Shown piece by piece: positions 8,819 to 32,886 of a stretch of 36,430 nucleotides of DNA. A program made the translations under genes and the position numbers. The number at the start of each line of letters is the position of its first letter. Position 1 is the stretch's first letter. The notes beneath the pieces were generated by a model. That model saw only the letters and a program-made list of their open reading frames with translations. It ran no database searches and had not been told where the DNA came from. The stretch is from Candidatus Latescibacterota bacterium (GTDB lineage: Bacteria; Latescibacterota; UBA2968; UBA8231): contig SICG01000026.1 in assembly GCA_009691525.1 (NCBI GenBank), positions 1 through 36,430 on the forward strand, read 5' to 3'.

Positions 8819-9772
8819 TCAGAGACCGCGAAAGAAGCCGCAGATATAGGATGAGGAGACCTGTCGGCGTCCCTGGATGTAGCGCCGCCGCCGCAGGGCC
8901 AGGGGCAGCAGGCGCAGCACGTCGACCAGGGCCAGGCTTAGGTACGGGGCGCGCAGAGGCCAGCGAAACAACAGATAGGGCCACAGCAGCAACTCGGTCA
9001 GCAGCAGGGGGGGCAGCAGCCGGAGCAACACCCCGGGGGAAGCGTTTTTGATCAGGGTCAGATAGCGATTTTTCAGGACGTGGCGCTGGAAGAAGGCCGG
9101 CTTCTCGGCAAAACGCAGGCGGCCGTCCAGTGAGCCGGAGCCCACATGATGAGCCGGTGGAGTGGGCTGGAAGCGCACCTTCCAACCCCAGAGCTGGGCC
9201 CTCCAGGCCAGGTCGATGTCCTCGCCATAACCAAAGTAGGATTCGTCGAAATATTCCCCTTCCACTTTGAGATCTTCGAGGGCCTCGCGGCAGAAGAGGA
9301 CCACCGCGCCGGTGGCGCCGAAGACTTCCTCGGGGAGATCGAGTTCCGTGCTGTGGCGAATGCGGATCTGCCGGCGCAGGAAGAAGCCGCCGTTGAGCAA
9401 CTCCTGGGTCGCCTCCTGGAAGACGAGCCCGGTCACCGCCGCCACCCGGGGGCCAGGGGCAAAACCCTGCAGGGCCTGGCGGAGAAAGTCGGGTTCGAGA
9501 AAGACGTCGGTGTTGAGCACCAGGATGTAGGGAGCGTTGCAGGCGGCGATGGCCTGGTTGTAGCCGGCGGCAAAGCCGCGGTTGGTGGGGTTTTCGATCA
9601 GCCGCACCTGCGGGTAGTGTTGCCTGAGCCACGTCTGCGAGCCATCGGTGGAACCGTTGTCCACCACCACCACCTCGGCGAGGGGGCAGGTCTGGGCATA
9701 GAGCCCTGCCAGGCACCGGTCCAGGTATTTCATGCCATTCCAGTTGGCCAGCGCTGCGGCGGTGTCACTCAC
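8819..9772 (-). CDS. Glycosyltransferase family 2 (rhamnosyltransferase-like)
   Basis: A 317-residue GT-A glycosyltransferase and the first gene of the polysaccharide operon. Recognisable segments are ALANWNGMKYLDRCL, VVVDNGSTDGSQTWL, PTNRGFAAGYNQAI, the DxD-like LNTDVFLEPDFL, and FDESYFGYGEDIDLAWRAQL, which contains the catalytic-base region of WbbL/RfbF-type rhamnosyltransferases. A hydrophobic patch and basic helices near residues 245-300 suggest membrane association. The GTG start at 9772 is supported by a strong GGAGGAAAG ribosome-binding site about seven bases upstream. The divergent mpl gene begins 97 bp away, so this short region must hold promoters for both strands. The rhamnosyltransferase likeness is family-level only. 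Confidence 0.9.
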   Translation of the reverse strand: MSDTAAALANWNGMKYLDRCLAGLYAQTCPLAEVVVVDNGSTDGSQTWLRQHYPQVRLIENPTNRGFAAGYNQAIAACNAPYILVLNTDVFLEPDFLRQALQGFAPGPRVAAVTGLVFQEATQELLNGGFFLRRQIRIRHSTELDLPEEVFGATGAVVLFCREALEDLKVEGEYFDESYFGYGEDIDLAWRAQLWGWKVRFQPTPPAHHVGSGSLDGRLRFAEKPAFFQRHVLKNRYLTLIKNASPGVLLRLLPPLLLTELLLWPYLLFRWPLRAPYLSLALVDVLRLLPLALRRRRYIQGRRQVSSSYICGFFRGL

Positions 9773-9832
9773 GCTCTTTCCTCCAAGTCAAAAAATCTAA
9801 CCCCGCCCCCTACCCTTAGCAACCGCGCCTGC

Positions 9833-9862
9833 TTGACAGCGGCTCGGCGCGAGAGGTATATA
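9833..9862 (+). promoter_or_regulatory. Sigma-70-type promoter of mpl
   Basis: TTGACA at 9833-9838 is followed after 18 bases by TATATA at 9857-9862. Transcription would be expected to start about seven bases past the -10 hexamer, at or next to the mpl ATG (9869), which would give a leaderless message. The match is read directly; activity is inferred. Confidence 0.65.
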
Positions 9863-9868
9863 GGAATC

Positions 9869-11296
9869 ATGTTTCAATTGCGGCCATCTGCCCATATCCA
9901 CCTGATTGCCATCTGCGGCACCGCCATGGGTTCCCTGGCCGGCATGCTCAGGGAACGCGGCTTCCGGGTCACGGGTTCGGACACCCACGTGTACCCGCCG
10001 ATGAGCACCTTTCTGGCGGAGATGGGTATCGAGGTGCAGGCCGGTTTCGACGCGGCCCGCCTCGAACCCGCCCCCGACCTGGTGGTGGTGGGCAACGCGG
10101 TCTCGCGCGGCAATCCCGAGGTGGAAGCCGTGCTCGACCGCCAGCTCACCTACGCCTCGCTGCCCGAGGTGTTGAGAGATTGCTTCCTGCGCGGCAAACG
10201 GCCGGTGGTGATCACCGGCACCCACGGCAAGACAACCACCACGGCCATGGTGGCGCACCTGCTGAGCCAGGGTGGCCTCGACCCTTCCTTTCTGATCGCC
10301 GGTTTGCCTCGGAACTTCCCCCGGTCCTTTGGTCTGGGCAAGGGCGAGTATTTTGCCGTGGAGGGCGATGAGTACGACAGCGCCTTCTTCGCCAAGTGGG
10401 CGAAATTTTTCTATTACCTGCCCGAGATCCTCATCGTCAACAACATCGAATTTGACCACGCCGACATCTACGAGAACCTGGGGGCCATCGAGAAGGCTTT
10501 CAGGCAGGTGATCAACCTGGTGCCAGGCCAAGGGCTGGTGCTGGCCGGCAGCGGGGACCTGGTGCTGGCCCGGCTGCTGCCCCAGTCCCGGGCGCCGGTG
10601 CAAACTTTTGGTCTGGAGGCAGAGGCCCACTGGCAGGCAACCCAAGTGGAGACCTCGTCCCAGGGAGAGCACTTCACTCTCTGCCGGCAGGGAGAGGAAC
10701 TGGGCCGTTTCTTTTTGGCCCTCAGCGGCGCGTACAATATCCGCAATGCCCTGGCGGCCTTGGGCGTGGGCCTGAGCGCGGGGTTGTCGGTGGAGCAGTT
10801 GCAGGAGGGGCTGCGCTCCTTCAAGGGGGTGCGGCGGCGGCAGGAATTGCTCGGGGTGGTGGGCGGGATCACCCTCATCGACGATTTCGCCCATCATCCC
10901 ACGGCCGTGGCCCAGACCCTCCTCGGCCTGCGCCAGGCCCACCGCAGCGGGACGCTGTGGGCGATTTTCGAACCCGCCAGTGCCAGCAACGCCCGGGCGG
11001 TTTTTGAAGCCCAGTATCTGGAGGCCTTTGCCCCGGCAGACCAGGTGATCATCGGCAAGGTGCCCCGCCCGGAGCGGGCGCGCAGCGATGAGCCCTTTTC
11101 CGGGGAGCGCCTGATCGAAGCGCTGCGCGCCCGGGGCAAGGGCGCCTGGCACCTGCCCGAGGTTGAGCAGATCCTGGCCCGGCTGGAGGCAGAGGTGGCA
11201 CCGGGGGATGTGGTGGTATTTATGAGCAACGGCGGTTTCGGCGGGGTCCAGACCCGTTTTCTCGAAACACTCAAGGGCAGAGATGCAGCTGCTTAA
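9869..11296 (+). CDS. mpl: UDP-N-acetylmuramate:L-alanyl-gamma-D-glutamyl-meso-diaminopimelate ligase
   Basis: A 475-residue Mur ligase of the recycling type: it re-attaches the tripeptide L-Ala-gamma-D-Glu-mDAP, recovered from murein turnover, to UDP-MurNAc in the cytoplasm. The N-terminal domain has the Mpl-type HIHLIAICGTAMGSLAGML (MurC has a different loop). The ATP-binding P-loop GTHGKTTTT lies at residues 117-125, EGDEYDSAFF and NIEFDHADIY follow, and the C-terminal domain contains DDFAHHPTAV and FEPASASNARAVF. The length fits Mpl. I use ATG 9869; the TTG at codon 4 is an alternative start. It overlaps the LD-carboxypeptidase gene by 14 bp, and together they form a murein-recycling pair. 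Its presence implies mDAP-type peptidoglycan. Confidence 0.95.
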   Translation: MFQLRPSAHIHLIAICGTAMGSLAGMLRERGFRVTGSDTHVYPPMSTFLAEMGIEVQAGFDAARLEPAPDLVVVGNAVSRGNPEVEAVLDRQLTYASLPEVLRDCFLRGKRPVVITGTHGKTTTTAMVAHLLSQGGLDPSFLIAGLPRNFPRSFGLGKGEYFAVEGDEYDSAFFAKWAKFFYYLPEILIVNNIEFDHADIYENLGAIEKAFRQVINLVPGQGLVLAGSGDLVLARLLPQSRAPVQTFGLEAEAHWQATQVETSSQGEHFTLCRQGEELGRFFLALSGAYNIRNALAALGVGLSAGLSVEQLQEGLRSFKGVRRRQELLGVVGGITLIDDFAHHPTAVAQTLLGLRQAHRSGTLWAIFEPASASNARAVFEAQYLEAFAPADQVIIGKVPRPERARSDEPFSGERLIEALRARGKGAWHLPEVEQILARLEAEVAPGDVVVFMSNGGFGGVQTRFLETLKGRDAAA

Positions 11297-12215
11297 GCCT
11301 GGTCCCCTGCAACCGGGGGAACTCATCGCCCTGGTGGGGCCTTCGGGACCGGCGCCCAGGGAGCGGTTGGAGGCGGGCATCGCCTATCTGGAGGGACGCG
11401 GGTACCGGGTCAGGCCGGGACGCCACCTTTTCGCGCGCCACCATTACCTGGCCGGCACCGACCAGCAGCGGGCCGAGGATCTGCGGGAGGCCTTCGCCGA
11501 TCCCCAGGTGCGGGCGGTGTTCTGCGCCCGGGGCGGATACGGCACGGGTCGGCTCCTGGATCGGCTCGACTACGCTGCCATCGCCGCTGACCCCAAGATC
11601 GTGTTGGGCTTCAGCGATACCACCGGTTTGCACCTGGCTCTCCAGGCCCGCTGCGGCCTGGTCTGTTTCACCGGCGGGCTGGTCTCCATGGATCTGGCCG
11701 GCGAGCGGGATCCCTTCACCGAGCAGTGGCTGTGGCGGACCCTGACCAGCAACGCGCCCTTGGGTGCGTTACCTCTGGGGGAAGAATTCAAGGTGCTGCG
11801 GCCGGGCCGGGCTGCGGGACCCTTGCGGGGTGGTTGCCTTTCGCTCTTATGCAGCCTGATGGGCACTGATTACGTGCCGGAGCTGAAGGGTGCCATTCTG
11901 CTGCTAGAAGATGTGGACGAATATCCCTACCGTCTGGACCGCATGCTGAACCATTTGCGCCTTGCCGGCGTCCTAAAGGACATCGGGGGCTTGGTCCTGG
12001 GCCAGTTCAAGGACTGCTTCAAGCCCGAGGAGATGGGACACTCGCCTGATTTGTCGGAGATGGTGATGGAACTGACCGAAGGTCTCGACCTGCCGGTGGT
12101 GACCGGGGTGCCCTACGGCCATTTCACGAGACGATTGGTATTACCGCTGGGCGTGCAGGCGGTGCTGGACACCGCCCTTCCCGAACTGCGCCTCACCGAG
12201 ACGGCTTTTGCATGA
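11283..12215 (+). CDS. ldcA: LD-carboxypeptidase (peptidase family S66, LdcA type)
   Basis: A 310-residue cytoplasmic serine peptidase expected to remove the terminal D-Ala from murein tetrapeptides, giving the tripeptide that Mpl uses. The S66 catalytic residues can be located: Ser111 in LGFSDTTGLHL, Glu209 in LLLEDVDEYPYRLDRML and His280 in VPYGHFTRRLVLPLG. The ARGGYGTGRLLDRLD segment is also characteristic. There is no signal peptide, which fits recycling in the cytoplasm. The ATG at 11283 lies inside the mpl 3' end with AAGGGCAGAG just upstream, so translation is coupled. The gene ends in an ATGA overlap with the HEAT-repeat gene. MccF-type immunity proteins share the fold, but the mpl neighbourhood favours murein recycling. 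Confidence 0.92.
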   Translation: MQLLKPGPLQPGELIALVGPSGPAPRERLEAGIAYLEGRGYRVRPGRHLFARHHYLAGTDQQRAEDLREAFADPQVRAVFCARGGYGTGRLLDRLDYAAIAADPKIVLGFSDTTGLHLALQARCGLVCFTGGLVSMDLAGERDPFTEQWLWRTLTSNAPLGALPLGEEFKVLRPGRAAGPLRGGCLSLLCSLMGTDYVPELKGAILLLEDVDEYPYRLDRMLNHLRLAGVLKDIGGLVLGQFKDCFKPEEMGHSPDLSEMVMELTEGLDLPVVTGVPYGHFTRRLVLPLGVQAVLDTALPELRLTETAFA

Positions 12216-12706
12216 GAGTCTGCTGCCTGTTTCTGCTCTTAGTGTGGGGTGCTGCTGCCCAGGCCCAGGACCCGCATATCCAGCGCCTGGGACAGGAATT
12301 GCACAGCCGAGAGCAGGGCCTCCGCATGCAGGCGGCCCGCAGCCTGGGGCTGGCCGGCGAAGCCCAGAGTGTGCTGCTCTTGCGCCAGGCGCTGCCGGGG
12401 GAGCGCAGCGCTGCCGTGCGCCTGGAAATCGTCCGCGCCCTGCGCAATATTGTTTTTTTGCGGTACCCAGGTTATCCGGAGGCACTGCGGGTGCTGCAGG
12501 AGGAATCCAGCGACGGGGCCGAGGCCGATGAACTGGTGCGCCTGAAGGCCACGGAGGCGCTGTGGGAGGCGGGGAAGAAGGATCTCCTAGATCCGGTGCC
12601 GGTGTTGCGCCGCAACCTGGGAGACCGCAGCCAGCGTCTGCGCCTGGCGGCGGTGGAAATGCTCGGGAAGCTAGGTACCCCCGCCACCATCAAAGCCCTG
12701 GGTTAG
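12212..12706 (+). CDS. Exported HEAT-repeat protein, N-terminal part (ends at in-frame TAG)
   Basis: This frame encodes 164 residues: a signal peptide (MRVCCLFLLLVWGAAAQAQ) and then alpha-helical HEAT-type repeats such as LRMQAARSLGLAGEAQSV, AVRLEIVRALRNIV and LRLAAVEMLGKLGTPATIKAL. The TAG at 12704-12706 falls in the middle of a repeat. The same frame continues without another stop to 13096, and the following codons complete the repeat, so the gene is most simply a 294-residue HEAT protein with one nonsense codon. It is coupled to the LD-carboxypeptidase gene by a 4-bp overlap. A periplasmic scaffold role linked to the cell wall is a guess from context. Alternatives to a dead gene are a sequencing or assembly error, readthrough, or re-initiation at GTG 12713. 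Confidence 0.75.
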   Translation: MRVCCLFLLLVWGAAAQAQDPHIQRLGQELHSREQGLRMQAARSLGLAGEAQSVLLLRQALPGERSAAVRLEIVRALRNIVFLRYPGYPEALRVLQEESSDGAEADELVRLKATEALWEAGKKDLLDPVPVLRRNLGDRSQRLRLAAVEMLGKLGTPATIKALG

Positions 12707-13096: not shown

Positions 13097-16000
13097 CTAG
13101 CGCAATCCCAGCGCTTTGAGATAATCCGCTCCGGCCCGGCTCAGATCTGCCAGTACGATCCGGGCCTCGCGACCCACCTGATCCCAGTCCATCTCGCGCG
13201 CCTCAGCCTGGGCCAGCTGCTTTTCGCCGGCCTCTTCGCGCAGGGCCACCCGATCCCACAGACCTACCCCGATATTGGGCTCGATCAGCACCACCCGCCA
13301 GCCGGCGATGTGCCCGGCAAAACAGCGCCCGCCCTCCTGCAAAAGAAAGGTGGAGCCGGTGCGCTGTCCCTGGTCGTCGAAGCTGGGCAACACGTCCACC
13401 AGGGTGCCGGGTGGATCGAAGAGGGGGGCGATGAGGAAGTCGAGCATCATGTACCGGGGGAAGCCGTAGGAGAGGCCAGTCAGGTCCACACCCACCGGGC
13501 GGCCCAGCTCGCGCTGGTAGGCCGGGGCGGTGCGCTGCTCGTACGCGGCCAGGGCTTCCATCACCCGGCGTCCTGCGAGGGCCAGTTGGTCGAGAATGGG
13601 CTGCTGGTGTTCGGGCCGGATGTGCACGGGAAGAAATTGTTCCAGACTGCCGCCGCGCCCGACATTGGTGATCAACTGGGTGCTGTTGAGGGTGATCCAG
13701 TGGGAGAGGTGCCAGCGTTCTTCCAGGCTGGGGGCCCCCGGATCGGCGGTGGAGAGGATGATGCGGTGCGAGCCGTAGATGGGGGTGCGGGGCCGGCGGC
13801 TGCGATCCACGGGGCTGCCCCACTCCGAGATCTGGCGGCACCCGAAGGCGGCCATGAATTCCTCGGTGGCCCAGTATTCGGGCGAAGAGCGGATGACTTC
13901 CTGGATGGCGGTGTTGTGTTTGAGGGAGATCTGGTGGATAAAATTCACCGCCGCGCGCAGTTGATCGGCATCCAGCTGGCCATCGAGCCGGCCCAGGGCA
14001 AAGGCGCGGGCGTTGCGGCCCCCGGATTCGGCGGCATCCTTGATCATCACCAGCGGGTAGCGCTGGGCAAAGGCCGCCAGGCCGCCATAGGGCGTGTCCG
14101 GTAGGCCTTCGGCGATCCATTTTTTGACCAGGGCCTCGTCGCGGCTGCGGGCCGTGTACTCGCTTAGCCAGTCGATCTCGGCGGGCATCTCCACCCCCGA
14201 AGTGGGCGGGAAGATGTCGGGATACTTGGCCTTGTCGTAGGTGGTCCAGGTGTGGAAGAGGGACTGGACCGTATAGGGCAGGCCGCAGTCCTCCAGTTGA
14301 CCGGTGGTGTAGAGCGGGTCCCCGTGGAAGGGATAGACAAGGGCAGCCAGCACCGGGCTGGTGAAACGGGCTGCCACCCGGATGCCCTTTGGCGGTACCT
14401 GCCCGGCCGCCTCGGCCGCCTGCGCCGGGCTGAGGCCCTTGTGTTGGATCAGGGCCTGGGCATAGGTGGTCGTGTCCACGTAAAAGTGGGCGCTGCGGCA
14501 GCAGACCACCGGCCGGGGAAGTCCAGGGCGGTGGTCGATTTCGGGATGGCGGCTGATAAAGACGTTGGCACCGGACTGACCCTGGGCCTCCAACTGGCGG
14601 GCCAGAGTGGGGCCTTCGCGCAGGGCCCGCGAATAGTGGGTGCGACCCACCGGTAGACCGATGAGATGGTTGATCCGCTGCTCGGCCTGGATCAACCCAG
14701 GGTCAAATTCGGCGAAAACCACCGGCAGCGGGAAGCCGTCGTTGCGGATAAAGGCCAGCTCCCGCAGCTGCCCGTAGGAGCGCCAGGCCCGCTCGGCTTT
14801 GCCCCGGGCGCCGGCGCCGATGGCCTCGACCTGCTGGCCGTCGAGGAAATTGCCCAAGAGCAGATCCTGCTCGGCAAGGGGCAGGGCGTGTACCTCGGGG
14901 TGGCGGGTGACCACCTGGCGCAGATAGCGGTAGAGCCAGGTGTGGCGCTCCACCGCCAACTGATAGAGGTCCTCACCGGCAAAGCCGGCGAAGCCGATGC
15001 CCCGCGAGTAGACCCAGGGCCGGTACTCGTAGAAGTGGTCGTCGAGGGTCTCGGCGAAAAAGTCGGCCAGACGCCGCCATAACAGGGAGGAATCTATTAA
15101 CCCCTCTGCGGGGCGGGTCAGTTCGATGGTGTGTTCCACCGCCAAGAGGATGTAGAAAAGCTCGGCACCCTGGGCCAGCAGGCGGAGGTGATGCTGGCAT
15201 TGGTTGCTGGAGAGCTGGCCTTGATGGTGGGCTTCGGCCACTTTCTGGGCCAGGCGACCAAAATCGCCGATATCCTCGTACCCACCGCCGATCTGACGCC
15301 AGATGGCCAGTTCGAGCTGCCTGCCGGTGAAAAGCTGGGCCAACCGGCCGATGAACTCCCGGGTCAGCTGGGGGTGTTCCTCGTCGTGGAACTGGCCGGC
15401 CAGGGCCAGCAGGGCGTTGCGCGTATAACCGATGAAGGTGCCCAAAGCCTGCTCGTCCACCGGCTGGTCGCCCGATCCGAGGGCCTGCAGGGCGGCCTGG
15501 TACGCGGCGGGAAAGGAGATGGGCTCGGCGGGTACCGCGGCAAAGGCGGCCTGGCGCTGGTTGAGGGCCTGGGCTTTGGCGATGCGGGCAGCCAACTGGC
15601 GCCTCGCCTCGATGGCCACCTGGGGGCGTTCCTCGGCGGCCTTGTTGGAACTCTCGAGACGCCGTTCCTGGCGGAACTCCTCGGGCTGGGGCCAGTACCG
15701 GGCATGTAACAGGGACAGATCGTTGGCCGGGGGCCGTCCCCCCAGGCGGCGCAGGCCTGCTTCAAAGCGCTGGGCATAGGCCTGGATCTCCTCGGCTTCG
15801 GCGCCTTCGAGCAGGAAGAGGCCACCCAGGGCGAGAAATTCGCCGAATCCCAGCTCTGCGAAGGGCAGTCCGCGTCCCAGGCGGGCCTGGGCCTGGGCGA
15901 TGAAGTGGTCGCGCTCCCGGTCGCGGCCAAAGCGGCGCAATTTCTCTGCTTCCTCCAGCCACTGCCCGAACTCCTGATCCTGGCGCATTTCATCCAGGGC

Positions 16001-19000
16001 GCGGGCGTACAGCGAGCGGGCGGTTTCGTCGCCAGCGGCGATGGCCTGGCCCAGCCGCTCGGCCCGCCGGCGCAGACGGCGCATCTGGGTCCGCCAGCCT
16101 TCGACGGTCTGCTGGCCCAGGCCGATGCTTAGGTAGACCGGCTGACGGCCCAGCCGCTCGCCAGCGGCGAACCAGAGCATCACGTCCAGCCGGTTGAGGG
16201 CCCGTCGCCGGGCCCCCGAAGCCCCGTCGACGATGACCAGGCCGCTGTGCGGGTTGCCCTCCAGCATCAGGGCGCAGAGGCGGGCCGGATCGGCCAGTAG
16301 GGTCTGGAGCGCGCGGTGGGGAATGCCGGTATCGAGCACGTCGGCGCCCTGGAGGGCGTGTTCGTACGAGGATTCGGGTCCCAGCACCCGCAGGGCCAGG
16401 GCGTGTAACTTGCCCCCCAGGCGGGCGACCAGGGCCGCCCCGGTAGTAGGGGTGAGACCGGCATGGCCGGCCCAGGTGCCCAGCCGGGGGCCGTGACTGC
16501 GCAGATTGGCCTCGATCTCGGAGAGGCTGAAACCGGCACTCAGCAGCTCGCGCTGGGCTTCCTCGGCCAAACTGTCGAGGTTGGAGTCGCTGGTATAGTT
16601 GAACAAGTCCTGGGTGGACAGCCCGGTGGGTGAGACCAGGCGTAGCTCGGCGGGAAGGGGGTGGCCGGGATAGAGCTGCCGCAGCTGAACTAGTGCCTCT
16701 TCGTCGCCCGGATCGAGTCCCAACAGTTGCAGCAGGCGGTGGCCCCGCCCGCGCAGCTCCAGAGCCGCGTAGCCCTGGTGCAGTAGCACGGCCAGTTCCT
16801 GGGCCTCGGCGTCGAGGGCGTGTAACAGGTGGTCGCCGGTGCCGGCCAGGATCTCGAATTTGCGCATGCCCACCGAGAAGCGGCCGTCCTGGGTATCGGG
16901 TTTGTACTCGGCGCTGAGCACGGCAACCAGGCCGGCGACATTGACCTGGGGGTGGCGCCTGGCCGCTTCCTGTATGCCAGAGCGGATGAGCCAGGCCTTG
17001 TAGAAGGGCATGAAGCGGTTGAGATGCTCGGCACCGGCCACCATCTTGTGGATGCCCCAGCGGGCTGAGAGCACCGCAGCCACCCGGTAGGGGTCCAGCA
17101 GTTCGGGCTGGCCCAGGCCTTCGAGCACCTGGGTGAGGTGGGGCAGCTGGAAGATGGGCAGGCCGGCGGGCAGCAGGGTGCGGGCCCAGGCTTCCCAGGC
17201 GCCCTGGGTGGGGAATTCGGCGCGGCGGTCCAGCAACTGGTGCGCCAATTCGGCCACCTGCTCGTGTACTTCGTCGGGCAAGCCCAGCTGGCGCAGTTTC
17301 TCGGTGCGTCCCAAGGTGAGCACAAATTCGAGGAAGAGGCCGTCCTTGGGCACGCAGTACCCGCCGTAGCCTTCGCCGGCGGGGTGGATCAGGCGGTCGC
17401 GGCGCCGGCTCATCTGGTCGCCCATCTCCTCCAGGTCGCCGTGGCGGGCGGCGCCCACCATCAGCGAGAGGGCATTGGAGAAGGCGAAGTGGGAGGCCAT
17501 GGAGGCGTTTTCGCCGGTCTTGAGTACCTCGGGTTCGGCCAGGCTGGCAAAGCTGCGCACGGATTTGTTGATCAGGCTGTAGATCTGGCGGCCGACCTGG
17601 GCGGCGGCCCGGTCCGCCCCGCCTACCCATTGGGACCAGCTCTCCACGGACTCGCGCTCGCGTTCCCCCAGGTCGACCCGGCTGGGGGTGTAGAGCAGGT
17701 GGTAGCGTTTGCCCGGACCGGTGGCCTGATAGGCATGGAGCGGGTCCATGGCCAGGTGGTTCAGCTTGCGGCTGGTGAGCACCTCCTTGCGGGCGGTGGT
17801 CTTGCTCAGGCGTTGGTAGCGCCGCAGGAAGGTGCGGGCCTGCTCCTGCAAATGCAGCTGGGGATGTTGCTGATCGAGCTCTTCCAGCACCAGGCGGCGG
17901 GCGGCAAAACGCACATAGGCTTGCAGATCTTGGCGGTAGTGCTCGTCGGCCTGGACCACCTGGAACAGGGCTTGCTCGGCGGTGGACTGGGGATGATCCA
18001 GACGATAGTGGTCGGCCTCCTGCTGCAACGACTCGCCGTTGCGCGCTGCTACCCGGGCCAGGGCGGTTGCCTGCAGCTGGGCCATCTTGTCGCGCAGACA
18101 GACCTCGACCGCGGCCGGCTCGCGTACGGGGGCGGCCCCTGGATGCTGCTTTTCTTCGTACTCGCACAGGGCACCCAGGCAGGACAGTTCCTCTTGGACC
18201 TGGGGGTTGCGGCCCATCACCCGCTGCACTGCTGCGGCAGTGGAGACCTGTTCACGGGCGCAGGTCTCCTCGACCTCCACCCAAATCCCCAATTCGCGGA
18301 TTACCTGCTCGCTCAGCTCGCCAATCCGGGCCAGGTAGGAGTCTTGGCGGGCCCGCACCTCGGGGTGCAGATGCTGGGCCTCCACCGCGTTGTACAGGGC
18401 CATCGATTCTTCTAGCCAGGTGCGGATATAACCCTCGGTCATGCCGGCCGACTGAGTGGTGAGCACGTGCAGGGTGGGCAGGGGGCGGCGGGGTTGCAGG
18501 GCCTGGGGCAGGAGCCGCTGGGCGGTGCGGGCGAAATCCGCGGCCAGGCCTTCCTCTTCCAGGGCCTGGCGGGCTGCCATTGCCCAGGGATGGCCTTGTT
18601 GCCGCAACATAGTGGCGCGGGTAAACAGCGCATGACGCGGTTCCAGCAGGACCTGGCAGAGGGCTTCGTAGGGCGGCAGTTCCTCGTTCTCGATCAGATT
18701 GCGGATGGGTTCCTGCTGCTGGCGGTACAGGTGTTCCACGATGGCCCCCAGGGCGGCTTCATCTGCTGAGGAGGAGGTCTCGCCGCCCATCACTTCCCGG
18801 GCTAGGGCCAGGAACTCGCTGTCCAGCACCAGCGCCAGATTCTGGGCCCAGAGATCGGCCATCTCCTCGCGGAAAGACTCCTCCATGCCGGCGATGTCCA
18901 CCACGGTGCGGGTGCTCTCGCGGCCCTCGACCAGCCGCACTTCCTCCTTGATAAAGAGGGGGATGGCCTCGATCCAGTGGTCGGCGACCCGCAGCCAGCG

Positions 19001-20455
19001 GTAGTCCGGACTGCTGTACAGGTGGTCGCCGGCCAGGCGGGCCAGTTTGCGCAGGTTCTCGGATTTGCCCAGGTACGGTTCCTCGAACTCGTTGATCTTG
19101 ACCAGCAGATGGGAGCCGGTGGGCGAGGGGCGTTGGCTGATGACCACGTAGGCGGCGCGCCGGCGGGGGGCGGCCAGCAGGGCCCGGCGCAGGTCCTGGA
19201 CCAGTTCCAGTCGCTGCTGGGTGGCCTCGGTCAGGGGCGCCGTCACCAGGGCAGGCAGTTCGTCGCCGGCCAGTTCGTCGCCGTGGTCCTCGATCTGCTG
19301 GCGGGCCTGCCGGCAGCGTTCGAGCAGGACTTGTTTCTGTTCTTCGAGCACTGCCTCCTCAAAGCGTTCGCAGGCCCCTTCGGCCTGGGTCAGCGGCACC
19401 TCGGCGCCGCTTTCCAGCAGCAGGCGCAACTCCTCGGCAAAGGGCTGGAGGATGGGGCTGCCTTCCATCGCTGCGGCCAGCCGGGGACCCAGTTCGGACC
19501 AGCCGGGCACTGGCTGCAAGAGCACCGCATCGGCGAAGAGGGTGGCCTGGTTGTGGAAAGCGCGACTCATGCGGCCGAAGATGAGTTCCTGTCCATCCTG
19601 GCGGGCCCGGGCGGCCAGGCGGGAGATATTGCCTTGTTCCAGATCGCGGTTGTAGTCGCGCAGCAGGGTATAAAGCAGGAAGCGTTTCTCATCGGGGTCC
19701 AGGGGGCGCTGCAGGAGGTCAGCGGCGGCCTGGCGGTTGTAAGGCAGATCCACCAGATCCTGGCCCAGGAGCCAGGTGATCTGTTCATCTTCCCAGTGTC
19801 GCGTGGGCTGCCCGCTAAGACAGGAGGTGCCCCGCTGCAGGAAAAGGGAAAACAGCTTGCCGCTGTCGAGCACGCTGCTTTCGAGCAGCTGATGGAGGCG
19901 GGTCTGTTCGGCGGGGGGAAATGCCCGGTACAGGGAGAGGGTATGGTGGAGGGCGGCCCGTTGCGAGCAGCCCCGCAGGCGCTGGAAGAGATGGTACTGG
20001 CCCAAGGCCAGCAGCAGCTCAAAGCCGGGCAATAACTCGGCGTTGGCCGGCTGTACCTCCCCCTTGCTCTCGTTCAGCACCATACCCAGCACGCCGGCCA
20101 CATCACCGGCCAGCAACACGGTCGATCCGTCCAGGTCGAGGAGCAGGTCGTGGTTTTCCACCACCCGCACCGGTACCTGGCGTCCGTTCAGCCAGGCCAG
20201 CAAGGCGCGGACCGGTTCTTCGGCCTCAAAGCGCTTGAGAACCAGGTGTAGAGCCCGGGCGGCCAGTAGGGCGCTGAGCTGGCATTGGACGCCGGCACCG
20301 GATTCGAGGTGGAGTTGGAAATCGGAAAAGGAAGGACCGCGGCAATGGTACATGCCCGCAGCCAGAGGGCGTCCTGGTCCGCGCCGGGCCTGCCACAGGC
20401 CGTGCTGGGGAAAATGGCGGGCGACTAATCTGAGAGGAAATCCGCAGAGTGACAC
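13097..20455 (-). CDS. Giant 2,452-residue uncharacterised protein with ATP-grasp-like C-terminal region
   Basis: One uninterrupted frame of 7.36 kb. I do not recognise the family. No signal peptide or membrane helix is visible, so it is probably cytoplasmic. Residues 1-1000 are mostly helical and Gln/Leu/Arg-rich, with one alpha/beta patch near 430-480. A motif-like core at about 985-1045 includes ASHFAFSNALSLMVGAARHG and EGYGGYCVPKDGLFLEFVL. Residues from about 2065 resemble a diverged ATP-grasp unit: YPLVMIKDAAESGGRNARAF (about 2135), TPIYGSHRIILS, LITNVGRGGSLEQF (about 2260) and VDLTGLSYGFPRYMMLDFL (about 2325). That reading is inference from pattern and order. The GTG start at 20455 has a GGAG ribosome-binding site seven bases upstream; a small ORF precedes it by 32 bp. 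It ends in TAG against the HEAT gene. Coding quality is uniform throughout, so I see no sign of fusion error. Confidence 0.85.
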   Translation of the reverse strand: MSLCGFPLRLVARHFPQHGLWQARRGPGRPLAAGMYHCRGPSFSDFQLHLESGAGVQCQLSALLAARALHLVLKRFEAEEPVRALLAWLNGRQVPVRVVENHDLLLDLDGSTVLLAGDVAGVLGMVLNESKGEVQPANAELLPGFELLLALGQYHLFQRLRGCSQRAALHHTLSLYRAFPPAEQTRLHQLLESSVLDSGKLFSLFLQRGTSCLSGQPTRHWEDEQITWLLGQDLVDLPYNRQAAADLLQRPLDPDEKRFLLYTLLRDYNRDLEQGNISRLAARARQDGQELIFGRMSRAFHNQATLFADAVLLQPVPGWSELGPRLAAAMEGSPILQPFAEELRLLLESGAEVPLTQAEGACERFEEAVLEEQKQVLLERCRQARQQIEDHGDELAGDELPALVTAPLTEATQQRLELVQDLRRALLAAPRRRAAYVVISQRPSPTGSHLLVKINEFEEPYLGKSENLRKLARLAGDHLYSSPDYRWLRVADHWIEAIPLFIKEEVRLVEGRESTRTVVDIAGMEESFREEMADLWAQNLALVLDSEFLALAREVMGGETSSSADEAALGAIVEHLYRQQQEPIRNLIENEELPPYEALCQVLLEPRHALFTRATMLRQQGHPWAMAARQALEEEGLAADFARTAQRLLPQALQPRRPLPTLHVLTTQSAGMTEGYIRTWLEESMALYNAVEAQHLHPEVRARQDSYLARIGELSEQVIRELGIWVEVEETCAREQVSTAAAVQRVMGRNPQVQEELSCLGALCEYEEKQHPGAAPVREPAAVEVCLRDKMAQLQATALARVAARNGESLQQEADHYRLDHPQSTAEQALFQVVQADEHYRQDLQAYVRFAARRLVLEELDQQHPQLHLQEQARTFLRRYQRLSKTTARKEVLTSRKLNHLAMDPLHAYQATGPGKRYHLLYTPSRVDLGERERESVESWSQWVGGADRAAAQVGRQIYSLINKSVRSFASLAEPEVLKTGENASMASHFAFSNALSLMVGAARHGDLEEMGDQMSRRRDRLIHPAGEGYGGYCVPKDGLFLEFVLTLGRTEKLRQLGLPDEVHEQVAELAHQLLDRRAEFPTQGAWEAWARTLLPAGLPIFQLPHLTQVLEGLGQPELLDPYRVAAVLSARWGIHKMVAGAEHLNRFMPFYKAWLIRSGIQEAARRHPQVNVAGLVAVLSAEYKPDTQDGRFSVGMRKFEILAGTGDHLLHALDAEAQELAVLLHQGYAALELRGRGHRLLQLLGLDPGDEEALVQLRQLYPGHPLPAELRLVSPTGLSTQDLFNYTSDSNLDSLAEEAQRELLSAGFSLSEIEANLRSHGPRLGTWAGHAGLTPTTGAALVARLGGKLHALALRVLGPESSYEHALQGADVLDTGIPHRALQTLLADPARLCALMLEGNPHSGLVIVDGASGARRRALNRLDVMLWFAAGERLGRQPVYLSIGLGQQTVEGWRTQMRRLRRRAERLGQAIAAGDETARSLYARALDEMRQDQEFGQWLEEAEKLRRFGRDRERDHFIAQAQARLGRGLPFAELGFGEFLALGGLFLLEGAEAEEIQAYAQRFEAGLRRLGGRPPANDLSLLHARYWPQPEEFRQERRLESSNKAAEERPQVAIEARRQLAARIAKAQALNQRQAAFAAVPAEPISFPAAYQAALQALGSGDQPVDEQALGTFIGYTRNALLALAGQFHDEEHPQLTREFIGRLAQLFTGRQLELAIWRQIGGGYEDIGDFGRLAQKVAEAHHQGQLSSNQCQHHLRLLAQGAELFYILLAVEHTIELTRPAEGLIDSSLLWRRLADFFAETLDDHFYEYRPWVYSRGIGFAGFAGEDLYQLAVERHTWLYRYLRQVVTRHPEVHALPLAEQDLLLGNFLDGQQVEAIGAGARGKAERAWRSYGQLRELAFIRNDGFPLPVVFAEFDPGLIQAEQRINHLIGLPVGRTHYSRALREGPTLARQLEAQGQSGANVFISRHPEIDHRPGLPRPVVCCRSAHFYVDTTTYAQALIQHKGLSPAQAAEAAGQVPPKGIRVAARFTSPVLAALVYPFHGDPLYTTGQLEDCGLPYTVQSLFHTWTTYDKAKYPDIFPPTSGVEMPAEIDWLSEYTARSRDEALVKKWIAEGLPDTPYGGLAAFAQRYPLVMIKDAAESGGRNARAFALGRLDGQLDADQLRAAVNFIHQISLKHNTAIQEVIRSSPEYWATEEFMAAFGCRQISEWGSPVDRSRRPRTPIYGSHRIILSTADPGAPSLEERWHLSHWITLNSTQLITNVGRGGSLEQFLPVHIRPEHQQPILDQLALAGRRVMEALAAYEQRTAPAYQRELGRPVGVDLTGLSYGFPRYMMLDFLIAPLFDPPGTLVDVLPSFDDQGQRTGSTFLLQEGGRCFAGHIAGWRVVLIEPNIGVGLWDRVALREEAGEKQLAQAEAREMDWDQVGREARIVLADLSRAGADYLKALGLR

Positions 20456-20487
20456 GATTGTGCTCCGCGCCGCGGGCTGATGGCGAT

Positions 20488-20730
20488 CTAGTTGACGGTG
20501 GTCTGTTGCAGGAAACCGATGGTGGTGGCCCGCATCTTGGGGCCCTGCATGTAGGAAAGGAAAAAGAAGTCCTTGAAATCGATGATCTCGTTCAGCCAGG
20601 TGGGGGCGTTGAGGCGCTGGAGCACATCCGCCAGTTCAGTGAAGACCTCCGGGCTGTGGAAGGCGTTGCGGATTGAATCCGCCTGGGTCTTGCGCAAGGC
20701 CAGGGCGATCTCGGCGCTGCTCTTGCACAC
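20488..20730 (-). CDS. Small hypothetical protein upstream of the giant gene (C-terminal part of a possible split ORF)
   Basis: Eighty residues from GTG 20730, with no recognised domain. The sequence is amphipathic and looks protein-like (EIALALRKTQADSIRNAF, then LNEIIDFKDFFFLSYMQG). The same frame is open back to a TAG at 20755-20757, and beyond it continues as the 44-residue ORF described next. A purine-rich AGGGGGAGGAGG follows that TAG. It is best spaced (nine bases) for an ATG in another frame that yields only a shadow peptide, and is about 14 bases from GTG 20730. Either this is an independent gene coupled to the one before it, or both pieces are one 133-residue protein interrupted by an amber codon. 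It lies 32 bp before the giant gene on the same strand and is probably co-transcribed with it. Confidence 0.5.
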   Translation of the reverse strand: MCKSSAEIALALRKTQADSIRNAFHSPEVFTELADVLQRLNAPTWLNEIIDFKDFFFLSYMQGPKMRATTIGFLQQTTVN

Positions 20731-20754
20731 CGCATACTTGATCGCCTCCTCCCC

Positions 20755-21059: not shown

Positions 21060-22466
21060 TCAGGCGCTTTCGGGCAGCAGTTCGCCGGCGAATTTGCCGT
21101 TCTCCTTGAAAGCGTCCATGGCCCCGTATTCGTGTAGTTTGTTGCGCAGGGTGCGGGTGCTGATGGCCAGCTTGGTAGCCGCCTCGGTGCGGTTGCCCTG
21201 GCAGGCCTCCAGGGTTTTCATGATCAGTCGGCGCTCCATTTCAGCGACGGTCATGCCCACCTGGAGCCCGTCGTCCTTGGCTGCCGGGTAGGGGCCTGCT
21301 GTCAGCTTGCGGGGGAAGTCCTCGGAGACCAGGACCGGGCCACGGGTCACCACCACCGCTCGCTCGATGTAGTTCTCCAACTCGCGGATGTTGCCGGGCC
21401 AGTCGTAGTTCATCAGCAATTCGTCCGCCTCGTGGGAGAGCCCTTCGATCTGCTTGCCGTTCTCCTGGCTGAAGCGGGCAGTGAAGAACTTGACCAGGGC
21501 CGGGATATCTTCCTTGCGTTCGCGCAGGGACGGGAGGGGAACATCGATGACATTGAGGCGGTAGTAGAGGTCCTCGCGGAAGTTGCCCTCCTCCACCTCT
21601 TTCTGCAGATCCCGGTTGGTGGTGGCGAGGATACGCACGTCCACCTTGAGGGTCTGGGTGCTGCCGATGCGCTCGAACTCGCGCTCCTGGAGGACCCGCA
21701 GCAGCTTGGCCTGCAGCCCCAGGTCGATCTCGCTGATCTCGTCGAGGAGCAGGGTGCCGCCGTCGGCCATCTCGAAGCGCCCCCGGGTCTGTTTGATGGC
21801 CCCGGTGAAGGCGCCTTTCTCGTGGCCAAAGAGTTCGCATTCCATCAGGTCCTTGGGCAGGGCGGCGCAGTTGAGGCGGATGAAGGGCCCGTTGCGCCGG
21901 GCACTGTCGTAGTGCAGGGCGCGGGCCACCAGTTCTTTGCCGGTGCCACTTTCGCCGGTGATCAGCACGGTGGCCCGGGTATCAGCCACCGTTCTGATGA
22001 GGTCGCGTACCTGCTCCATGTTGCGGCTTTTGCCGATCATTTCTGACTTGTCGTGTAACTCGGAGCGCAGTCGGCGGTTTTCGCGTTTGGTCTCCTGATG
22101 CTCCAGGGCGCGCTCAACGACAATTTCCAGCTCGGCTACGGTGGAGTCTGAGCCCTTCTGGATATAGCTGTAGGCACCCTTTTGCATGGCCTCTACCGCG
22201 TTGGCAATGCTGGCATGGGCGGTGATCATGACGACGATGGTTTCTGGCGCCCGAGTGCGGATGGCTTCCAACAATTCAAGGCCGTCCATGCCGGGCATCT
22301 TGATGTCGGAAAGGACCAGGTCGTAGTCGCCGTCCTCGAGTTTGGCCAGGGCCGAGCGCGCCTCGGGGGCGGTGCCCACTTCGTACCCCTTGCGGGTGAG
22401 GGTCAGTTCGGTCATCTCGCGGACATAGGAGTCGTCGTCGACCACCAGAATGCGCTTGTTCGCCAT
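21060..22466 (-). CDS. Sigma-54-dependent response regulator, NtrC family (FlrC-like)
   Basis: A 468-residue activator with three domains. The receiver domain (1-120) has the acidic pocket VVDDD and phospho-acceptor Asp54 in [11 protein letters not shown]. The AAA+ domain carries Walker A GESGTGKE at 171-178, the sigma-54-contacting GAFTGA at 218-223, a Walker B around GTLLLDEIS and the arginine-finger region [12 protein letters not shown] Fis-type helix-turn-helix lies near the C terminus ([21 protein letters not shown]). All motifs needed to activate RNA polymerase-sigma54 are intact. The ATG at 22466 has GAGG eight bases upstream. It follows the kinase by 14 bp and is presumably its partner. 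The neighbouring FlgN/FliT-like gene suggests flagellar control, but no flagellar structural genes lie in the window. Confidence 0.93.
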
Positions 22467-22480
22467 GATGTCGTGCCTCG

Positions 22481-23755
22481 TTAGGAGTTATGAGGTATGG
22501 AAACGGTAAAACAGGTGCCCTTGCCCGGCTCGCTCTCCACCGTGATGAGGCCACCGTGGGCCTCAATGATCTTCTTGGAGGTGACCAGCCCCAGGCCGGT
22601 GCCGTCCTCCTTGGTGGTGAAGAAGGGGGTGAAGAGCTTTTGCTGGACTTCGGAACTCATGCCCATGCCCTGGTCGCGGACGGTGAGCCGAATCTGGGCA
22701 GGGTCGGGAGTGTGGGCCAAAAGGCCGATGGCGATGGTGCCCCCGCGGGGGGACATCGCCTGGGTGGCGTTGTGGAGCAGGTTGAGGATAACTTGTTGGA
22801 ACTGCTCTGGGTCGATGGCGCAATCCAGGGGCAACTCTGGATAGAGACGTTGCAGGCAGATATTTTCGTGGCGGCGTTCCAGGTCGATCTCAAAAAAGGC
22901 GGTGGCTTCTTCAACCACTTCCACGATGTTCACCGGGCGGGTGTTGAGGGTCAGGGGGCGAGTGTAGCTGAGCAGGCTGGAGACAATGCGGTTGAGTCTG
23001 GCTACGCCCTCGGTGATCTTGCGGGCCAGGCGGCGGCGGGGGTCATCGGCAGCCAGGTCGCGTTCGAGCAGGGTGGCGAAGCCGGCGATGCCCCCCAGCG
23101 GATTGCGAATCTCGTGGGCCACGGTGGCGGCCATCTCACCCAGGGCGGCCAGGGTGTATATGCGTTGCACCTGGGCCTCCAGGCGTTTGACCTCGGTCAG
23201 GTCGTTGAAGACCTCGACCGCTCCCAAGACGTTGCCTTCGGCATCGCGGACCAGGGCGGTGCTGAAACCCAGGGGTATGGTCCGCCCGTTTTCTAATTGA
23301 AGATTTTTTTCCCGATTGGTAAGGCTCTGAAAGGTTTCAAGGGTGTGGAGTACCGACAGTTCGCGTCCGGCATCCAGGCCGATCACCTGGGCGTAGGGGT
23401 AGCCCTGCACTTCCTGCTGGGCGAGGCCGGTAATCTCTTCGGCGGCCTGGTTGAAGAGGGTGATGTTGCCCTCCAGATCCACCACCAGCACGCCGCCGCT
23501 CATGCTCTCCAGAATATTGTTCAGGTAGTTGCTGACCCGGTCCTTCTCTTCCAGGCTCTTGCGGAGTTCGTGGTTGGTCTCTTCCAGTTTGATGTTGAGA
23601 TACTCGAACTGTTCCTCGAGCTGCCTATAGGCCTCTATGTACTTGCGGGTGGTCTCATTAAAGAGGATATAGGAATCGGTGAAAGCCTCTTCGAGCTGGC
23701 TGGAGGAGCGGCCCAGGTCCAGGACGTGTTCGGTGACCGGTTCGGCGGTGTCCAT
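22481..23755 (-). CDS. Soluble PAS-domain sensor histidine kinase (FlrB/FleS-like)
   Basis: A 424-residue cytoplasmic kinase without membrane helices. Residues about 15-85 form a long coiled coil (YRQLEEQFEYLNIKLEETNH), as in FlrB/FleS. A PAS domain follows at about 85-195 (SMSGGVLVVDLEGNITLFN). The dimerisation/phospho-acceptor domain has His214 in VAHEIRNPLGGIAGFATLL, and the ATPase domain has an N box (VILNLLHNATQAM) and glycine-rich loops (VRDQGMGMS, GTGLGLVTSKKI). It should phosphorylate the NtrC-type regulator encoded 14 bp downstream in response to an intracellular cue. The ATG at 23755 has GGAAGAGAG just upstream. Assignment to flagellar control rests on architecture and the preceding chaperone-like gene, so other NtrB-like roles remain possible. 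Confidence 0.92.
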   Translation of the reverse strand: MDTAEPVTEHVLDLGRSSSQLEEAFTDSYILFNETTRKYIEAYRQLEEQFEYLNIKLEETNHELRKSLEEKDRVSNYLNNILESMSGGVLVVDLEGNITLFNQAAEEITGLAQQEVQGYPYAQVIGLDAGRELSVLHTLETFQSLTNREKNLQLENGRTIPLGFSTALVRDAEGNVLGAVEVFNDLTEVKRLEAQVQRIYTLAALGEMAATVAHEIRNPLGGIAGFATLLERDLAADDPRRRLARKITEGVARLNRIVSSLLSYTRPLTLNTRPVNIVEVVEEATAFFEIDLERRHENICLQRLYPELPLDCAIDPEQFQQVILNLLHNATQAMSPRGGTIAIGLLAHTPDPAQIRLTVRDQGMGMSSEVQQKLFTPFFTTKEDGTGLGLVTSKKIIEAHGGLITVESEPGKGTCFTVSIPHNS

Positions 23756-26129: not shown

Positions 26130-27374
26130 ATGAAAGAAACGAAACTCAGTCAAAAGCAAGCAGGCAGCGCCGCCGCCATTCAGCGCGCCCTCGATGAATT
26201 GGCAACCACCGGTGGCCGATTGGTGTTGCCGGAGATGGATCTGGAACTGGACCGCAGCCTGCGGCTGCACTCGGGCGTAGAGTTGGTGGGCCAGGGGCCG
26301 ACGACGGTGCTTCGCAAGGGGCCGGGCCGGGTGTACCCCCTTTCCGGGTACCACAACTACGGCATGGCCGATGTGCCGCTCGTCGATGCCAGTGGCCTGG
26401 AGGTGGGTATGACCGTCTCCATCCACGACAACCGCACGCACGGCGGGTTTTACGAGACCTTTGCCACCATTACCTGGATCGAGGACAACTGGGTGGGCCT
26501 CGATCACGGCATCGAGGCCGATTACAGCGGCAGCGAGCAGCCCTGCTTGACCACGGTTTATCCGCTGGTCTGGGGCAATTACGTGCGCGGCGCTGCCCTG
26601 CGCGACCTCCATCTGGAGGGCAACCGGGCCGCCAACGCCAAGGGCATGGGGGGCTGCCGCGGGGCAGCGGTGTACTTCGGCAACAGCCGGGACCTGGAAA
26701 TCACCGGGGTCAGCGAGCGCGACTACTTCGGCGAGGGGCTGGGCTTTCAGATGTGCCGCGACGTACGGGTTCTCCATTGTCGTTTCGACGAAAACACCGG
26801 CAACGGCCTGCACCCGGGGGCCGGCAGCACCAATGCCCTGCTCGAGGATTGTGTCGGGGAGGGCAACGGTCGCAGTGGTTTCTTCTTCTGTGTGCGCGCC
26901 AACCACATCACGGTGCGGCGCGGCACCTTCCGGGGCAACCAATTGGGGATTTCCATCGGCACCCGCGACTGTTACAACCTGGTCGAAGACTGCCAGGTGG
27001 AGGCCAATCGGGGCGCCGGCGTGTTGGTGCGCCAGGGGCCGCACCCCGTCGAGGTGCATTCCTGCCTGATCCGGGGCTGCCGCATCGAGGGCAATGCCCT
27101 GCAGGAGGGGCAGGGGCAGGTGGAGATCTGGGGCGAGGCCCATGACCTGATCTTCGCCGACAACCGGATCGGGGGGGGTAAGGCCGGGGTATGGGTGCAC
27201 GAAAGTGCCCGGGGGATTTATCTAGACAACAACCACTTCGACCTTTGCCATCCAGAGGTGGTTGCCGGCCCGCTGGGCCTGAGCTACAGTATGCCGCAGT
27301 TCGAGCACGGGTACGGCACGGCCGGGGAATCGGCGTTCAGGCATCTGGAGCGCACGAGTTTGTTTCCTCACTAA
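26130..27374 (+). CDS. Right-handed parallel beta-helix protein (pectate-lyase-like fold)
   Basis: A 414-residue protein. The first 50 residues (AAAIQRALDELATTGGRLVLPE) match the usual entry of pectate-lyase-3/NosD-type beta-helices. From about residue 150 short repeats of 22-25 residues recur, with turns such as FDENTGNGLHPGAGS, EGNGRSGFFFCV and FRGNQLGISIGTRDC. These folds bind or cleave polysaccharides. No signal peptide or lipobox is present, which is unusual for the family. The ATG at 26130 has an excellent AGAAGGAG ribosome-binding site. The stop overlaps that of the convergent AICAR formyltransferase gene by three bases. Catalytic residues cannot be assigned, and function as a glycan-active enzyme or a structural protein is open. 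Confidence 0.8.
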   Translation: MKETKLSQKQAGSAAAIQRALDELATTGGRLVLPEMDLELDRSLRLHSGVELVGQGPTTVLRKGPGRVYPLSGYHNYGMADVPLVDASGLEVGMTVSIHDNRTHGGFYETFATITWIEDNWVGLDHGIEADYSGSEQPCLTTVYPLVWGNYVRGAALRDLHLEGNRAANAKGMGGCRGAAVYFGNSRDLEITGVSERDYFGEGLGFQMCRDVRVLHCRFDENTGNGLHPGAGSTNALLEDCVGEGNGRSGFFFCVRANHITVRRGTFRGNQLGISIGTRDCYNLVEDCQVEANRGAGVLVRQGPHPVEVHSCLIRGCRIEGNALQEGQGQVEIWGEAHDLIFADNRIGGGKAGVWVHESARGIYLDNNHFDLCHPEVVAGPLGLSYSMPQFEHGYGTAGESAFRHLERTSLFPH

Positions 27375-28546
27375 TGGTGAAACAGGCGCACGCCCGAGTT
27401 CACCATCACCATGCCGTACTCGTTGGCAGCGGCGATCACCAAATCGTCGCGGAGCGAGCCGCCGGCCTGCACCACGTACTCCACGCCGCTGCGCCGCGCC
27501 CGGTCCAGGCTGTCGCGGAAGGGGAAGTAGGCGTCGGAGCTGAGGGCGACGCCCTGTAACCCGTCCAGCCATTCGCGTTTCTCCTGCGCACTCAGGCGTA
27601 CCGGCACCTGGGCGAAGCTGGCCTCCCAGGCCTGTAACTCCTGCGAGGTGGCGTCTTCCTGCAAGTACAGATCGATGGCGTTGATGCGTTCGGCGCGCTT
27701 GAGTCCTTTGCGGAACTTCAGCTCCAGCACCCTGGGGTGCTGCCGCAAGTGCCAGAGGTCGGCCTTGGCAGCGGCCAGGCGCACGCAGTGGACGCGGGAT
27801 TGCTGGCCGGCACCGATGCCGATGGCCTGGCCGTCTAGGGCCAGGCCCACAGAATTGGATTGGGTGTATTTGATCGCCAGGGTGGCCACCACCAGGTCTC
27901 GCCGGGCGGAGTCGGGCAGATCGCGGCGCTGGGTCACCACCTTGGCGAAAAAGCCGTCATCGGGCATGAACAGATTGCGCGGCTGTTCCAGGGCGAGGCC
28001 AAAGACCTCGCGCAACTCCTGTGGCCCGGGGTCATAGCCGGGGTCGATCTGTAAGATCCGGTAGTCCCCGTCCTTTTTTTTCTTGAGTATCTCCAGGGCC
28101 TCCGCCTCGTACCCGGGGGCGATGACCCCGTCGGAGACTTCGCGCCGGAGGATGCGGGCGGTGGGCACATCCACCGTATCGCTGAGGGAGACCCAGTCGC
28201 CGAAGGAGGCCAAGGGGTCGGCGCCCCTGGCTCTTAGATATGCGGTGGCCAGGGGCGAGAGAGCTTCGTCCTCGGCGAAGTAGGCAGCGCGTAATTGCTC
28301 GTCGAGCGGCACGGCCACCGCGGCGCCGGCCGGGCTGACGTGTTTGAAGGAGGCGGCCGCCGGCAGGTTGAGGACTTGGCGCAATTCGCGCACCAGCTGC
28401 CAGGAATTGAGGGCGTCGAGCAGATTGATATAGCTGGGCGACCCATTGAGAATCTGTAAGGGCAGGGGGCCGCCGTCGCGGCGGAAACAGCGGGCCGGGG
28501 CCTGATGGGGATTGCAGCCGTAGCGCATGTTGAGCTGGTCTGACAT
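27371..28546 (-). CDS. purH: Stand-alone AICAR formyltransferase (PurH C-terminal activity)
   Basis: A 391-residue cytosolic enzyme of purine synthesis. It should transfer the formyl group of 10-formyl-tetrahydrofolate to AICAR, giving FAICAR. The conserved catalytic Lys-His pair is Lys68-His69 in ASFKHVSPAGAAVAVPL. Other family blocks are MRYGCNPHQAPAR at the N terminus, IKYTQSNSVGLALDGQAIGI and the closing SSDAYFPFRDSLDRA with GSLRDDLVI. The IMP cyclohydrolase half of classical bifunctional PurH is absent: the ATG at 28546 (GGAG six bases upstream) starts directly at the transformylase, and the frame further upstream is antisense to dapA. The cyclisation step must be encoded elsewhere. Stand-alone versions of this domain are known in other bacteria. 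Confidence 0.9.
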   Translation of the reverse strand: MSDQLNMRYGCNPHQAPARCFRRDGGPLPLQILNGSPSYINLLDALNSWQLVRELRQVLNLPAAASFKHVSPAGAAVAVPLDEQLRAAYFAEDEALSPLATAYLRARGADPLASFGDWVSLSDTVDVPTARILRREVSDGVIAPGYEAEALEILKKKKDGDYRILQIDPGYDPGPQELREVFGLALEQPRNLFMPDDGFFAKVVTQRRDLPDSARRDLVVATLAIKYTQSNSVGLALDGQAIGIGAGQQSRVHCVRLAAAKADLWHLRQHPRVLELKFRKGLKRAERINAIDLYLQEDATSQELQAWEASFAQVPVRLSAQEKREWLDGLQGVALSSDAYFPFRDSLDRARRSGVEYVVQAGGSLRDDLVIAAANEYGMVMVNSGVRLFHH

Positions 28547-28571
28547 GGCGGCTCCAGAGGGTGAACGCCGG

Positions 28572-28600
28572 TTGACAAAGGTAAGGGGGCTGATTATTAT
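28572..28600 (+). promoter_or_regulatory. Strong sigma-70 promoter of dapA-dapB
   Basis: TTGACA (28572-28577) is followed after exactly 17 bases by TATTAT (28595-28600), giving 11 of 12 consensus positions. Transcription should start near 28607, leaving a leader of about 54 bases before dapA. It lies in the 114-bp region shared with the divergent formyltransferase gene. Confidence 0.75.
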
Positions 28601-28660
28601 GGTTCTCTTTAACTGAGTATAGATTCGCAAAAATAGATCTCCTCTGCAAGGCGGTGAATT

Positions 28661-32884: not shown

Positions 32885-32886
32885 GG

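Follow-up and report, generated by a model that had tools for sequence, protein, structure and literature searches.

What kind of system is served by a single open reading frame of 2,452 residues in a Candidatus Latescibacterota bacterium? The frame lies in a stretch of 36,430 nucleotides, here called the window; this is contig 150 in an assembly of 4.0 Mb and 200 contigs. A sequence-only reading of the window had singled the frame out, without its strand, as a giant, soluble, non-repetitive protein under selection, unrelated to anything nameable and a candidate for an undescribed system.

The giant gene and its product

The open frame is present and is encoded on the minus strand.

13097–20455, minus strand: giant gene, 2,452 amino acids, GTG start at 20455, backed by full-length homologues and dN/dS
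20463–20466, minus strand: GGAG, putative ribosome-binding site of the giant gene, at the same position in the relatives L011, L013 and L014

The GGAG lies 8–11 nt upstream of the GTG and the alignment of the relatives begins at the same place, while the plus strand of 13097–20455 contains many stops when read in frame. The encoded protein has a mass of 274 kDa and a pI of 5.9. In agreement with its description as soluble and non-repetitive, a repeat search over the whole chain found no tandem repeats, and no part of it is hydrophobic enough for a transmembrane segment (the highest Kyte-Doolittle mean over 19 residues is 1.44). The modular or repeat domains and the secretion signal that mark NRPS/PKS, RHS and adhesin proteins are absent from the chain, and no pair of its segments gave an alignment convincing enough for an internal duplication. 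With full-length orthologues and dN/dS values of 0.16–0.26 against most relatives and 0.44 against one, the gene is under purifying selection, as had been supposed.

Residues 1–640, 690–900 and 1210–1880 gave no match to anything known, and profile searches with the middle and C-terminal segments against PDB sequences returned chance or helical-repeat matches only. AlphaFold2 models of residues 2–1201 and 1165–2364, built from nine sequences, reached pLDDT values of 54 and 59 with the core described below left unfolded. The structural comparison by Foldseek that had been suggested as a check was run with both models against the PDB, but returned nothing usable.

In two assemblies of the same genus (L012, 866–8212; L011, 10001–17334), the giant contains an in-frame TAG or its frame is broken near residue 2328, which may be either sequencing error or decay.

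Occurrence across phyla

A homologue search, likewise suggested earlier for phylogenetic spread and gene neighbourhood, revealed full-length relatives of about 2,350–2,740 residues in Latescibacterota and four other phyla, as well as a recurrent ATP-grasp neighbour. Full-length orthologues share 78–95 % identity within the genus and 30–60 % elsewhere. Within the phylum the giant occurs in 20 of 64 genomes, distributed over the families f1 (except genus g3), f5, f6 and f10. Five more genomes among the 386 searched carry it in the four other phyla. It is found in 10 of 14 genomes in one of these, where family f247 has two paralogues, and in 1 of 2, 1 of 2 and 1 of 17 genomes in the remaining three. 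Other matches in the phylum were rejected as giants, being ordinary dehydrogenases that align to residues ~900–1070 only; a 474-residue match in genome G064 is an ordinary dehydrogenase as well.

The close relatives come from metagenome-assembled genomes (MAGs) labelled Latescibacterota, Handelsmanbacteria or Gemmatimonadota. As the giants of L014, L015 and L017, titled Gemmatimonas or Gemmatimonadetes, correspond to those of genomes from the window's own genus or family, these titles are probably wrong.

A nucleotide-sugar-dehydrogenase-like core

Searches against Pfam, NCBIfam and PDB sequences concur on a single known piece of the chain, the central domain of nucleotide-sugar dehydrogenases.

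16826–17716, minus strand: residues 914–1210, nucleotide-sugar-dehydrogenase catalytic core (TIGR03026, PDB 3g79, hhalign, E. coli Ugd)
17342–17371, minus strand: residues 1029–1038, catalytic cysteine motif GYGGYCVPKD (family alignment, E. coli Ugd)
18443–18463, minus strand: residues 665–671, LTTQSAG, tentatively a possible counterpart of the ST(V)-P-G-T motif (hhalign of residues 640–720)

The core matches NCBIfam TIGR03026 at 9.4e-16 and PDB 3g79 at 4.9e-8, and a profile of the diverse family aligns with dehydrogenases of the same phylum over residues 914–1210 with an hhalign E-value of 2.8e-14. When the core segment was compared with 67 E. coli proteins, Ugd ranked first. Judged by these comparisons, residues 914–1210 are homologous to the nucleotide-sugar dehydrogenase catalytic core, taking in the PER-like strand, the central helical domain and the first part of the C-terminal one, interrupted by an insertion of ~85 residues. 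Of the nucleotide-sugar-binding C-terminal domain, the alignment reaches only the first strand and the substrate arginine region YKPDTQDGR.

Like the UDP-glucose and UDP-ManNAc dehydrogenases (TIGR03026, PF00984), the giant keeps an invariant cysteine, lysine and arginine and a near-invariant asparagine. The motif GYGGYCLPKD of E. coli Ugd has its counterpart in GYGGYCVPKD, where C1034 and K1037 are invariant in 34 of 34 aligned relatives and position 1038 is occupied by Asp in 24 relatives and by Glu in 10. K979 is conserved in 35/35, N983 in 34/35 and R1192 of the substrate arginine region in 36/36 relatives. Unlike these enzymes, the giant carries Ser at the catalytic Glu position of the PE(R) motif (S925, Ser in 32/32 relatives), the ~85-residue insertion, and no detectable NAD-binding domain, and its core makes up only about 300 of 2,452 residues. 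Neither an NAD(P)-binding Rossmann domain nor a GxGxxG motif was found, hhalign of all segments upstream of residue 914 yielding no significant match, and the N-terminal NAD domain of Pfam matched none of 19 members of the giant family, so that redox chemistry of the giant is doubtful. Since two defining features, the NAD domain and the catalytic Glu, are not found, the giant as a whole does not belong to the nucleotide-sugar dehydrogenases.

A probable C-terminal ATP-grasp module

13100–14818, minus strand: residues 1880–2452, likely ATP-grasp module with pre-ATP-grasp part (hhalign, DdlB/GshB ranking, invariant residues)
14201–14254, minus strand: residues 2068–2085, FHTWTTYDKAKYPDIFPP, putative first ATP-grasp lysine motif with K2075, containing TYDK (alignment)
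14015–14050, minus strand: residues 2136–2147, VMIKDAAESGGR, putative second ATP-grasp lysine (K2139) and glycine-rich loop (alignment)
13262–13288, minus strand: residues 2390–2398, LIEPNIGVG, putative metal-binding E-x-N with E2392 and N2394 (alignment)

Residues 1880–2452 are likely, though not proven, to form an ATP-grasp module. Aligned by hhalign with the family of the companion ATP-grasp protein described below, they gave an E-value of 2.9e-4 at a probability of only 40 %, compared with probabilities of ≤1.4 % for other segments of the giant used as negative controls. Among the 67 E. coli proteins, DdlB came first for the C-terminal segment (E 0.005) and GshB second, with the DK and K motifs in register. 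No row of the alignment with a residue at the position in question (29–32 rows) departs from K2075, K2139, R2231, N2264, E2392 or N2394. The giant thereby presents the same hallmark residues, in the order K, K, R, N, E-x-N, as the ATP-grasp carboxylate-amine ligases D-Ala-D-Ala ligase, glutathione synthetase and RimK. Unlike in these enzymes, the module is larger than usual, fused to a dehydrogenase-like core and to unrecognised sequence of ~1,500 residues, and too divergent for Pfam, which placed no family above threshold and listed weak ATP-grasp families among other chance matches.

The two modules bear directly on the earlier description of the giant as unrelated to anything: the whole chain indeed matches no characterised family over its full length, but two of its modules can be named. 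Two motif blocks that it had pointed out are where it placed them, YGGYCVPKDGLF from residue 1030 and FHTWTTYDKAKYPDIFPP at about residue 2068. The former turned out to be the catalytic cysteine motif of nucleotide-sugar dehydrogenases and the latter probably the first ATP-grasp lysine motif, and the conservation proposed as a sign of a real enzyme family is seen in both, at C1034 and K1037 as well as at K2075.

A companion ATP-grasp protein

Over 386 genomes, the giant and a separate ATP-grasp protein occur together in 24, each alone in one, and neither in 360 (Fisher p about 7e-36, uncorrected for phylogeny and with a search profile taken partly from adjacent genes). The genome with the giant only (G001) is 60 % complete and the one with the ATP-grasp only (G002), from the same genus, 78 %. 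The companion resembles ligases of the RimK, Ddl and N-acetylglutaminylglutamine synthetase types.

In most genera of family f1 and in f10, the ATP-grasp gene comes right after the giant; in f1 a gene for a fucokinase-like GHMP kinase stands next. The order giant, ATP-grasp, galactokinase-like gene is found in genomes G329 and G101, and giant, then ATP-grasp in G090. Each of the two f247 paralogues has its own ATP-grasp gene nearby, adjoining in the case of the second. In the window's genome, the ATP-grasp and GHMP kinase genes lie together on contig C108 (6522–9684), apart from the giant; it is likewise apart from the giant that the ATP-grasp gene is found in G207/G344 and G004/G005, and there too a GHMP kinase follows it. 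Depending on the lineage, the kinases beside the ATP-grasp gene are galactokinase-, fucokinase- or heptokinase-like, the same succession as in sugar-metabolism neighbourhoods of ATP-grasp and GHMP kinase genes. An obligate third partner was considered in the GHMP kinase and dismissed, since genus g3 has this kinase but no giant and the type of kinase differs between lineages.

The trees of the giant and the ATP-grasp protein agree in their main splits, having two deep clades and their subclades in common and pairing the paralogues correctly (Mantel r 0.79, p 1e-4). In both trees, the pair from the Latescibacterota genera G052 and G057 (loci L052 and L051), which belong to the window's family, groups with another phylum, which suggests that it was transferred jointly as a unit. 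Shared species descent accounts for part of the tree agreement, but neither the paralogue pairing nor this anomaly. Giant and companion ATP-grasp thus form an obligate-looking pair.

Just downstream of the second giant and ATP-grasp pair of f247 lies a radical SAM gene of the KamA/aminomutase family (L125, 3832–7402), a possible hint of a beta-amino-acid substrate.

Proposed function and alternatives

The giant is made up of modules of known kinds and looks like the core of an undescribed sugar-conjugating pathway. The open-access literature searched contained neither a paper on such a dehydrogenase-like/ATP-grasp combination nor a published operon joining it with ATP-grasp and GHMP kinase genes, and the expectation of an undescribed system is borne out to the extent that the giant looks like part of one. 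We consider it an even call that it is a cytoplasmic multi-module enzyme, half of an obligate ATP-grasp pair usually fed by a sugar kinase of the GHMP family, with a role in making sugar-acid-amine conjugates. This role appears likeliest because the ATP-grasp enzymes typified by Ddl, GshB and RimK couple carboxylates with amines, while the dehydrogenase core and the sugar kinases point to sugars.

Our best guess for the chemistry is a system of carboxylate-amine ligases with sugar substrates, either uronates or nucleotide-sugars. The GHMP kinase would yield a sugar-1-phosphate, and the dehydrogenase-like pocket would bind a sugar acid or nucleotide-sugar. An invariant cysteine in the absence of a catalytic Glu and an NAD domain suggests that an acyl group or substrate is held rather than oxidised in the ordinary way; the substrate may be bound as a thioester on C1034, which, with Ser in place of the catalytic Glu, would escape hydrolysis. 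The giant, through its ATP-grasp module, and the companion ATP-grasp protein would then convert carboxylates into acyl phosphates and couple these to amines, the product being a conjugate of the sugar-amino-acid type, either a small molecule or a polymer unit. The most far-reaching version, a new class of giant single-chain synthetases in several deep-branching phyla, with a dehydrogenase site turned to acyl (thioester) transfer and coupled to ATP-grasp chemistry and an obligate second ATP-grasp to give sugar-amine conjugates, is unlikely on present evidence.

The giant may instead still be an oxidoreductase, with an NAD-binding domain diverged past recognition or split by insertions, that would oxidise a nucleotide sugar to the acid before amidating it. 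We regard this as doubtful, if a serious contender. The catalytic Cys, Lys and Arg are invariant and Asn and Thr nearly so, and the best hhalign match of residues 640–720 falls, with residues 665–684, exactly on the dehydrogenase motif ESTTYPGTT, in collinear order with an STV-like element at 665 and the PER-like strand at 923 and with the candidate catalytic threonine T667 invariant in 32/32 relatives. That match is, however, non-significant alone (P 0.054), the stretch immediately ahead of the PER-like strand is helical by confident prediction, and the glycine motif is missing while the catalytic Glu is uniformly Ser. This Ser and the lack of an NAD domain would also suit a dead dehydrogenase-like core that serves as a substrate-binding or assembly scaffold, leaving catalysis, for example as a peptide or cofactor ligase, to the ATP-grasp modules alone, whose residues are all intact. 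A scaffold would not need Cys, Lys and Arg, which are kept without exception in two deep clades and five phyla, and we find this explanation improbable.

Large size and patchy spread across phyla could also fit a defence, conflict or phage-related protein. As PADLOC returned no match, the PHROGs match is confined to the UDP-glucose dehydrogenase stretch, phages gave no match and plasmids only ordinary dehydrogenases, and the giant shows a stable vertical pattern within lineages and metabolic partners, such a role is very unlikely; in viral contigs patterns were matched, but no relative was found. That the frame is an assembly or annotation artefact, be it a shadow frame or a fusion of genes in a fragmented metagenome assembly, has a next to negligible chance of being true: relatives that are co-linear and of the same length occur in independent MAGs of five phyla with dN/dS mostly in the range given above, which also disposes of the chimera of separate known genes named earlier as a possible refutation.

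If the preferred reading of a sugar-conjugating ligase system is true, a cysteine pocket of the dehydrogenase type combined with ATP-grasp ligation would be a new architecture for sugar conjugates. The giant ranks among the largest non-modular cytoplasmic enzymes of these bacteria, is annotated by a sub-threshold domain only, and has been retained in five phyla along with a specific partner. The motif GYGGYCVPKD illustrates that a well-known catalytic motif can hide inside a giant 'hypothetical' protein, and the three-gene set of giant, ATP-grasp and GHMP kinase is ready for expression and testing.

Gene neighbourhood in the window

20491–20754, minus strand: remnant of an HDOD-domain gene, 88 codons; relatives carry an HDOD-domain gene upstream of the giant
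21060–22466, minus strand: sigma-54 response regulator, conserved upstream neighbour of the giant
22481–23755, minus strand: PAS histidine kinase, conserved upstream neighbour of the giant
9146–12706, plus strand: tandem Mur ligase (N-terminally extended by ~245 residues), LD-carboxypeptidase S66 and HEAT-repeat genes that converge on the giant

The histidine kinase, response regulator and HDOD-domain genes upstream of the giant are conserved in one family only. The HDOD-domain gene is intact in L011 and L013; in the window, ~1.2 kb of it is missing and the last 88 codons are left, with a junction near 20686–20693 of ~8 bp shared sequence, and the loss may be either a real deletion or an assembly collapse. 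Downstream of the giant, the window's genus has a convergent cell-wall gene set, which at 9146–12706 looks like peptidoglycan recycling.

Elsewhere in the window, 27371–29590 encodes a 739-residue protein that matches AICARFT/IMPCHase at residues 348–609 only, its long N-terminal part being unrecognised, and 31364–34404 encodes two adjoining paralogues of ~505 residues with an NEW3/NPCBM-associated domain near the C-terminus.
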